A stretch of DNA of 64,000 nt from Synechococcus sp. 8F6 (lineage in GTDB: Bacteria > Cyanobacteriota > Cyanobacteriia > PCC-6307 > Cyanobiaceae), in the NCBI RefSeq assembly GCF_002252665.1, contig NZ_NQKZ01000005.1, positions 62,001-126,000 on the forward strand, given 5' to 3'. Shown here in pieces: positions 44,686-46,768 of the stretch. The notes under the pieces are model-generated. The model was not told the origin of the DNA. It did not search any database and was given only the letters and a program-made list of their open reading frames with translations. Position 1 is the stretch's first letter, and each line of letters begins with the position of its first letter. The position numbers were made by a program, and so were the translations under genes.

Positions 44686-45027
44686 TCAATCCAGGGTGAC
44701 GTCGCCGGTTTCGCCCGTGCGGATGCGGATCGAGGCCTCAACCGGCATGACAATGATCTTGCCATCGCCCACTTCGCCGGTTTGGGCGGTCGATTTGATC
44801 GCCTCAATCATCCCAGCCATGGCTGCGTCGGTGACAACCGTGGTGATCATGACCTTGGGCAGCAATCTGGCCTCCACCTTCACGCCGCGATAGACCTCGG
44901 TGTGCCCCATCTGCTTGCCGAAACCCTGCACGGAGGTGACGGTCATGCCATTGATGCCGAGACTCACCAGCGCATCCTTGACGGCGTCAAGCTTTTCGGG
45001 GCGGATGATGGCTTGAATCTGTTTCAC
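44686..45027 (-). CDS. glnB: P-II family protein with unusual T-loop (GlnK-like)
   Basis: A 113-residue P-II trimer subunit. Family features are intact: [15 protein letters not shown] at the N-terminus, VYRGV in the T-loop, and B-loop [11 protein letters not shown] plus RIRTGE. However Ser49 (site of phosphorylation in cyanobacterial GlnB) and Tyr51 (uridylylation site elsewhere) are both Val, so neither known modification is possible. It is divergent from the ammonium transporter gene, as GlnK-Amt pairs often are. It may gate the transporter directly by ADP/ATP and 2-oxoglutarate. The main GlnB is probably elsewhere. Confidence 0.92.
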
Positions 45028-45334
45028 GCGATACCAATGCTGATCTTCTCCTGTCTAGCCACGACCCGACCGCAGTTCTGTAGCAACCGCAGCTGAGCGG
45101 TGGCCCTGGCTCGGTGGCGAAACACTCCAAAACAATTCCCCCGGTGGCGCCACTCACGGCAGCAGCAGCCGGGGGATCAAATCACTGAGAGCAATGCCTT
45201 GGCGGGGCGCTGCTGGGAGCGGGAGCTCGATTTGGTATCAAAACAAACACCTCATCCCCCTGGTAGCGCGCATCCTTTATTGCGAAGGGATTTCGACGAT
45301 CCCCAACCTGAGCAGCCGTCCCTCTGATCTGCCC
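45028..45334. promoter_or_regulatory. Divergent control region between the P-II gene and amt
   Basis: A 307-bp spacer with no gene. Two imperfect NtcA-like sites occur: GTAGCAACCGCAGC (45080-45093, GTA-N8-AGC), close in sequence to the glnN box, and GTATCAAAACAAAC (45235-45248, GTA-N8-AAC), about 86 bp before the amt ATG with a T/A-rich stretch (CTTTATTG) some 25 bp after. Neither is perfect, so NtcA control of this pair is only a suggestion. Confidence 0.35.
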
Positions 45335-46768
45335 ATGACCAATTCTTCCATTCCTCCAAGGCGCAAGCGCCTGCAAGAGGCGAGTCTGTATGAAGCTCCG
45401 ATGATGCTCCTGCGCAGCTTGCGCGGTTTGGCCTCCGGCAGCTCCCTGGTTTGGCTTGCCTGTGTGCCCCTGGCCCTGTTTGGCCTGGGTGTGTTCAATC
45501 TCTCGGCCCATGCCGCCGAGCTGCCTGAGCTCACACCGGCCTTCCTGGCCAACAACATGTTTATTTTTATCTGTGCGGTCCTGGTGATCTTCATGAACGC
45601 CGGCTTCGCCATGGTGGAGGCGGGCATGTGTCGTCAGAAGAACGCCGTCAACATCCTGCTGAAGAACCTGATCGTGTTTGCCTTGGCCGCCTCGGCCTAC
45701 TGGCTGATCGGCTATTCCCTGATGTATGGCGATTCGCTGGTGGATGGATGGCTCTACTTTAAAGGGCTGTTCTTCGACCCCAGCGTTACCGCTGAGATGG
45801 TGACCGAGGCCTCCCTCGTTCCCACGGTTGATTTCTTCTTCCAGGTGGCCTTCGCCGCCACAGCCGCCACCATCGTTTCCGGCTTGGTGGCCGAGCGCAT
45901 CAAGTTTGGCGAGTTCGTGATCTTCTCTCTGGTGCTGGTGGGCTTCCTCTACCCCATCTCCGGCTCCTGGCAGTGGAACGGTGGCTGGTTGAGCGAGCTC
46001 GGCTTCATCGACTTCGCTGGCTCCTCGATCGTGCACTCCTTCGGTGCCTGGGCAGGAGTTGTGGGCGCCATGTTGCTCGGCCCCCGCATCGGCAAGTTCA
46101 TTGACGGCAAAACCCAGGCACTTCCTGGCCACAACATGGCCATTGCCACTCTGGGTTGTCTGATCCTTTGGATCGGCTGGTATGGCTTCAACCCCGGCTC
46201 CGTGCTGGCCATGGATGAAACCGTGCCCTACGTGGCTGTCACCACCACCCTCGGTGCCGCTGGTGGCGCCATCTCCGGCACCGTGATCTCCCAGATCCGT
46301 GGCGGCAAGCCCGACCTCACCATGACCATCAACGGCATCCTGGCTGGTTTGGTGAGCGTGACGGCCGGTTGTGACGGCTTCTCGATGGCCGGCTCCTGGA
46401 TAGCTGGCTTCATCGGTGGCGGTCTGGTGGTGTTCTCGGTAGCCCTGCTCGATTCCCTCAAGATCGACGATCCGGTTGGTGCCTTCTCTGTGCACGGCAC
46501 CTGCGGCATCTGGGGCACCCTGGCAGTAGGCATCTTCAACATGGATGCAGGCCTGTTCTACGGCCACGGCTTCACCCAGCTGGGCTACCAGATCGTGGGT
46601 GTGCTGGCCTACGGGATCTTCGCGGTGGTGACGTCCTGGATCGTCTGGTCCATCATCGGCGCCCTGTTCGGTGGCATTCGTGTTCCCGACAAGGAAGAGA
46701 TCGAAGGTCTCGACATCGGCGAGCACGGCATGGAGGCCTATCCAGACTTCGCTGCCACGGCCAAGTGA
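45335..46768 (+). CDS. amt: Ammonium transporter
   Basis: A 477-residue Amt/MEP transporter with a leading hydrophobic segment (probable signal) and about eleven helices. The pore twin histidines lie in [22 protein letters not shown] and [42 protein letters not shown] and GYNPGSVLA-type motifs are typical. It takes up ammonium at low concentration. The ATG at 45335 ([10 protein letters not shown]) is chosen; upstream in-frame sequence is not conserved-looking. It pairs with the divergent P-II gene, and a strong terminator follows. Confidence 0.95.

Follow-up and report, generated by a model that had tools for sequence, protein, structure and literature searches.

A P-II protein divergently paired with Amt1 in Cyanobiaceae, a probable GlnK-type gate without T-loop modification

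The window analyzed here is a 64,000-nucleotide stretch of DNA from Synechococcus sp. 8F6, and it encodes a P-II protein of a type termed class A, located divergently to the ammonium transporter gene amt1. Class A is probably a second P-II protein of Cyanobiaceae, of the GlnK type and dedicated to a single channel; judged from its sequence, it would gate Amt1 in response to ligands only and would be freed from T-loop modification. The unusual T-loop reported in an initial annotation proved to be real and the function guessed there to be a good one: the pair is a variant of the GlnK-Amt system, best read as a GlnK-type gate that would work without T-loop modification. The central features are:

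44686-45027, minus strand: glnK-type P-II gene (class A), GTG start, 113 amino acids, Pfam match
44860-44919, minus strand: region coding for the T-loop, approximately residues 37-56, with R47 kept and V49, K50 and V51
45335-46768, plus strand: amt1 (PF00909), 477 amino acids from the ATG at 45335, Ammonium_transp match of 406.2 bits

The window P-II protein and its genome

The protein encoded at 44686-45027 is a member of the P-II family: it matches the Pfam model PF00543 with 98.1 bits, above the gathering score (cut-off 25), and keeps the GDGK and RIRTG motifs. With Pfam matches for both genes, the divergent arrangement of an amt gene and a P-II gene with the T-loop VYRGVKVEA is real. Residues 45-53 read V-Y-R-G-V-K-V-E-A, and the translated gene has Val at both 49 and 51, confirming the described loss of Ser49 and Tyr51. 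The sequence RYRGSEYT, given as the cyanobacterial norm, was found in 15 of 20 P-II proteins from other cyanobacteria, but the canonical GlnB of this very genome has the loop RYRGSEFTV, so that Tyr51 is already gone there. Apart from S49 to Val, E50 to Lys and Y51 to Val, the window protein differs from GlnB by F11 to Glu, K40 to Met and R45 to Val; the ligand residues R9, G37, Q39, G41, K58, T83, G87-K90, R101 and R103 are kept.

Phosphorylated cyanobacterial GlnB carries Ser49, which is V49 here. Uridylylation or adenylylation of P-II goes along with Tyr51 and GlnD; the window protein has V51, and no GlnD-type protein (PF08335) was detected in its genome by a search that in the control matched 3 of 14 genomes (E. 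coli, Caulobacter and Corynebacterium). Scores with the NCBIfam equivalog models PRK10858 (123.6 of 202) and PRK10665 (115.7 of 181) were below the cut-offs; the same is true for the GlnB of this genome (149.4 and 140.3), and the models thus do not separate GlnB from GlnK. Among known structures, the AlphaFold model (pLDDT 87.9, lower across the T-loop) matches those of P-II and GlnK proteins; one of these is E. coli GlnK as solved together with AmtB (2ns1, TMq 0.85).

The genome (2.51 Mb, 84 contigs, completeness 99.99) contains three P-II matches: the window gene, the canonical glnB on contig 11 (ERYRGSEFTVEF) and a 93-amino-acid P-II-like protein. The last adjoins a membrane protein of 331 amino acids, and we take the two to be SbtB and SbtA. 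A canonical glnB is therefore present as a separate copy, and what was found is not a P-II that groups with ordinary GlnB in a genome holding no other copy. A single Amt match was obtained in this genome, the one paired with the window P-II.

Conservation of class A and its Amt1 partner

Class A proteins were found in 25 of 400 Cyanobiaceae genomes, the window genome included. Identities to the window copy are 65-99% for 24 of them (its own among these) and 63% over residues 17-112 for the remaining one. Across the phylum, a search at E <= 1e-34 detected the type in 3 of 339 genomes, all of the genus of the window. V49 and R47, the T-loop arginine expected of GlnK, are present in 25/25 class A proteins, residue 51 is V, I, L or M in 25/25 and K50 is kept in 24/25. 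The pairwise dN/dS values against the window copy range from 0.05 to 0.45 in 23 comparisons (L185 was left out), and these sequences indicate that class A is under purifying selection. Since V49 and an aliphatic residue or Met at 51 occur throughout and dN/dS is low, the loop cannot be put down to a sequencing error. Ligand affinities may differ within class A, because residue 40 is Met, Leu, Phe or Arg instead of Lys, residue 38 varies and one member (L187) is without R9.

A location next to amt is a further mark of GlnK, and the window P-II shows it in a divergent arrangement. The amt gene is clearly divergent from the class A gene in 23/25 loci; in the two others, the locus lies at a contig edge (L165) or is ambiguous (L187). 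In one locus (L179, genome G133) the amt1 gene next to the class A gene runs in two frames (278 and 319 amino acids), which may be a frameshift, a pseudogene or an assembly error. The window amt1 probably begins with the ATG at 45335 and not at 45194, because this ATG is aligned in all those compared loci (13 of 15) whose slice extends to it.

The partner is itself an ordinary transporter: 325 of 400 Cyanobiaceae genomes contain proteins of its type (E <= 1e-125), from which we conclude that it is a native family member, Amt1. In a tree of 51 Amt1 proteins (22 paired with class A, 29 unpaired), both kinds are interspersed, with five label changes, three of which are forced by well-supported branches; L179 was left out and L165 and L187 provided no usable Amt1 row. 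Class A GlnK thus accompanies a widespread channel in a patchy manner. At the window locus (L163), amt1 groups with other genera (99/95) and glnK with its own genus, a hint of recombination between amt1 and glnK.

The protein ends exactly five residues beyond YPDF, with Lys as the last, in 21/22 paired and 0/29 unpaired Amt1 sequences, the unpaired set consisting of better matches and a hand-picked spread rather than a random draw. A terminal Lys in any form occurs in 21/22 paired versus 11/29 unpaired proteins. Other columns also separate the two kinds, mostly in the badly aligned N-terminus, and so do columns 322 and 75 in the body of the protein (22/22 paired versus 13/29 unpaired). Across four independent pairs with support on the tree, the tail changed in the same direction 3.8 times on average and never in the opposite one; the association on the tree is not significant (median p 0.125). 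The association of the Amt1 tail with class A is thus suggestive only.

Four further features surround the pair:

45079-45086, minus strand: TGTAGCAA block, some 50 bp ahead of glnK, candidate NtcA half-site
45235-45248, plus strand: NtcA-like GTAN8AAC upstream of amt1, a candidate by sequence match
44078-44596, plus strand: orphan cpcB (C-phycocyanin beta), convergent to glnK, without cpcA
38029-40242, plus strand: glnN for a type III glutamine synthetase, in the same island as glnK

We take GTAN8[AT]AC to be the NtcA consensus. This motif is located at a nearly fixed place before amt1 in 21/23 class A loci (it is absent in L177 and L181), 20 of the 21 being an imperfect GTAN8AAC; before unpaired amt1 it was found in 15 of the 26 loci with enough sequence. 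The GTA of the TGTAGCAA block is invariant in 15 aligned loci. These motifs suggest that the glnK/amt1 pair may be under NtcA control. A scan of 44560-45500 for sigma-70 promoters and terminators found nothing, and PADLOC gave no match.

The orphan cpcB is 91.9% identical to the cpcB on contig 55 and keeps C82, C153 and N72. It is present near class A glnK in 13/25 loci versus 0/19 unpaired amt1 loci, counting one locus (L176) where it lies beyond a class B pair; we regard it as a member of the island, with no role in the gate implied. A GST gene is likewise found in the fetched stretch of 18/25 class A loci versus 0/19 unpaired amt1 loci. The glutamine synthetase gene glnN is present in the fetched stretch of 10/25 class A loci. 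Together with structures of M. mazei GlnK1 bound to glutamine synthetase, reported in PMC10651883, this would allow class A to control mainly another neighbour such as glnN, in the manner of archaeal GlnK1. We consider such a role very improbable, since the constant divergent partner is amt1 and not glnN, which moreover ends 4.4 kb from glnK in the window.

Ancestry of class A and related T-loops

In a P-II tree of 114 rows (truncated L185 left out), class A forms one clade (100/99) that lies outside the group of cyanobacterial GlnB and class B (99/93). It is joined there (84/89) by 11 of the 12 planctomycete rows and a single row from Coatesbacteria. When nine long or doubtful rows were dropped, here as well as in the T-loop-free tree and the AU tests, class A and planctomycetes were joined at 98/96, the program warning of long branches that meet there. 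When the T-loop columns were removed, class A joined class B (80/85) in a group of cyanobacteria (87/84). With these columns included, an AU test did not reject a grouping of class A with cyanobacteria (p 0.359). Once they were removed, joining class A to planctomycetes was still not rejected (p 0.458), and neither was a cyanobacterial group that excludes class A (p 0.476).

The initial annotation had considered a non-cyanobacterial ancestry. A non-cyanobacterial donor of the P-II or of the pair, such as a planctomycete, would agree with both full-length trees and with a stretch of 10 protein letters shared with one locus (L039), but we judge it unlikely: Amt1 is the common Cyanobiaceae type, class A lies beside cyanobacterial class B once the T-loop columns are removed, the AU tests reject neither placement, the tree program warned of long branches meeting at the node that joins class A and planctomycetes, and the few class A members in the phylum-wide search all belong to the window's genus. 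The phylogeny supports a clade of its own apart from GlnB, the placement of which depends on the T-loop columns. We do not claim a foreign origin, as the planctomycete grouping is gone without these columns and no placement is rejected. The foreign signal sits in the T-loop, and convergence is no less likely than transfer.

Class A could also be a general second P-II (glnB2) that serves broader nitrogen sensing, possibly in mixed trimers with GlnB, and has no special role at Amt1. Excerpts of a study on picocyanobacteria (PMC9361551) suggest that extra PII copies help under variable nitrogen. The constant divergent amt1, the differences from GlnB at all of residues 11, 45, 49, 50 and 51 and the clade apart from GlnB in both trees argue against this role, to which we give a low probability. 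The same excerpts report a second PII copy in 12/67 freshwater and 3/17 brackish picocyanobacteria; the glnB2 cluster CK_00041583 named there could be class A or class B.

Class B is, like class A, a second P-II linked to Amt in Cyanobiaceae, but it groups with GlnB in the full tree and is encoded in an amt-glnK operon, the Amt of which is only about 30% identical to that of the window. In 14 loci its gene follows this other amt on the same strand; L196 and L201, which were fetched with these loci, have GlnB-type loops and no amt. The loops of class B mostly read RYRG[NT][EA][FY], except for one RYRGTEI and one with T at position 45. Both types can occur side by side, as one locus (L176, genome G297) carries a class B amt-glnK operon next to a class A glnK/amt1 pair. 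In two further loci (L194 and L199, genomes G160 and G061), the class B operon is preceded by Amt1 in tandem. No class A match was found in these two genomes, in which an amt1 similar to that of the window adjoins class B; Amt1 therefore does not need class A.

Similar loops are present elsewhere. Eleven of twelve planctomycete P-II rows carry YRG[AGT][KR][VLM][DE]; these rows come from 10 of 101 genomes that match the query well and are thus a biased sample. An amt gene was seen in 4/12 and none in the other 8/12 in a tabulation of residue 51 against amt, though the available loci were short. In Firmicutes, eight loci (L062, L063, L072, L075, L076, L079, L080 and L082, some of them near-copies) encode Amt-GlnK fusions of 586-609 amino acids in one frame with a shared stop. 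Their loops read YRGV[QTPE][ILMV][ED] in 8/8, all without Tyr51; they resemble those of class A but belong to a single polypeptide with Amt and to a distant clade. Unfused Bacillota relatives beside amt (L066, L067, L069, L070, L071, L073, L074, L077, L078 and L083) keep Tyr51 in 10/10, with a class A-like loop in 0/10, and the sampled fused rows nest among unfused ones in the P-II tree. Against a simple rule that ties a non-aromatic residue 51 to a nearby amt stand 19 'other' P-II rows with an aromatic residue 51 and a same-strand amt, in a tabulation in which sampling was biased toward the query and the label 'fused' also caught overlapping reading frames.

It is conceivable, if somewhat doubtful, that the loop form YRG[VA]x[VILM][ED] arose repeatedly by convergence and marks P-II proteins which gave up covalent modification and other targets in favour of one channel, with the channel tail co-adapting. 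It would have been reached separately in Cyanobiaceae class A, in the Firmicutes fusions, the unfused relatives of which keep Tyr51, and in planctomycetes, and the co-adapted tail would here be the Lys-ending Amt1 tail of fixed length. A distant cyanobacterium (G459, L216:2741-3079) has a second P-II with the loop IYRGAEIK that is encoded divergently from amt. A search for its relatives in 328 genomes gave 90 matches, G459 itself at 100% and all others at 69% or less; we took the latter as GlnB, which would make G459 a single case.

The predicted gate and its meaning

A gate on Amt1 that responds to ligands alone is the most economical reading of the sequence. Inhibition of Amt1 and release by ATP and 2-oxoglutarate are predicted for class A as properties of a GlnK. 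Under nitrogen sufficiency, with ADP bound and 2-oxoglutarate low, the T-loops of the trimer would extend into the three Amt1 pores, and Arg47 would plug them in this state. When nitrogen is scarce, ATP and 2-oxoglutarate would flex the loops and Amt1 would be released. Because Val at 49 and 51 accepts no phosphate, nucleotide or nitro group, this release would depend on ligands alone, and control by nucleotides and 2-oxoglutarate only, as first proposed, fits the sequence. Residues R45, S49, E50 and F11 of GlnB serve NAGK or PipX binding. The changes F11E, R45V, S49V and E50K probably remove class A from the NAGK and PipX circuits, which would be left to canonical GlnB. For class A we infer Amt1 binding, a ligand response and the loss of NAGK/PipX binding. 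The idea of a dedicated GlnK-like gate agrees with the conserved pairing, the retention of Arg47 and the ligand residues, the lack of a GlnD match and the separate glnB; only the foreign ancestry attached to it is not supported.

Compared to the GlnK-AmtB system of E. coli (PDB 2ns1/2nuu), the P-II fold, Arg47, the ligand residues and the location next to amt are alike, whereas E. coli has Tyr51, GlnD and an operon and the window has V49/V51, no GlnD match and divergent genes. Archaeal GlnK-Amt pairs are arranged as an operon and differ from class A by their distant sequence. Cyanobacterial GlnB (Synechocystis, S. elongatus) shares the fold and the ligand site; class A differs in lacking F11, R45, S49, E50 and Y/F51, in forming its own clade and in its link to amt1. 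In published work, Synechocystis P-II binds Amt1, as predicted for class A, and binding is weakened by S49D and abolished by R9L (PMC6603209); by analogy, canonical GlnB may gate Amt1 as well. The Ser49 phosphate blocks the NAGK complex, and Arg9 is part of this complex and of PipX binding, according to a review (PMC6243067). E. coli GlnK Y51A still binds and leaves AmtB (extracts of PMC4274968 and PMC4285133). Sections of the latter, also a review, add that many P-II proteins probably function without modification, that none has been reported in archaea, and that the archaeal Amt gates (A. fulgidus GlnK3, Methanococcales GlnK) are set by ADP, ATP and 2-oxoglutarate, which is the likeness to class A.

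In the same sections, cyanobacteria are said to have usually one P-II, and glnK and amtB to share an operon invariably (PMC4285133). The class A pair is an exception to both statements, and no description of class A was found among the titles and abstract openings listed for open-licence PMC papers (up to 20 per search). Two standing questions concern the need for covalent modification of P-II and the way in which a single P-II of cyanobacteria acts on its many targets. Both become testable in one cell that holds a natural pair, a GlnB with an ordinary Ser49 loop and a channel-linked GlnK with a stripped loop, the latter next to an Amt1 that works without such a partner in relatives.
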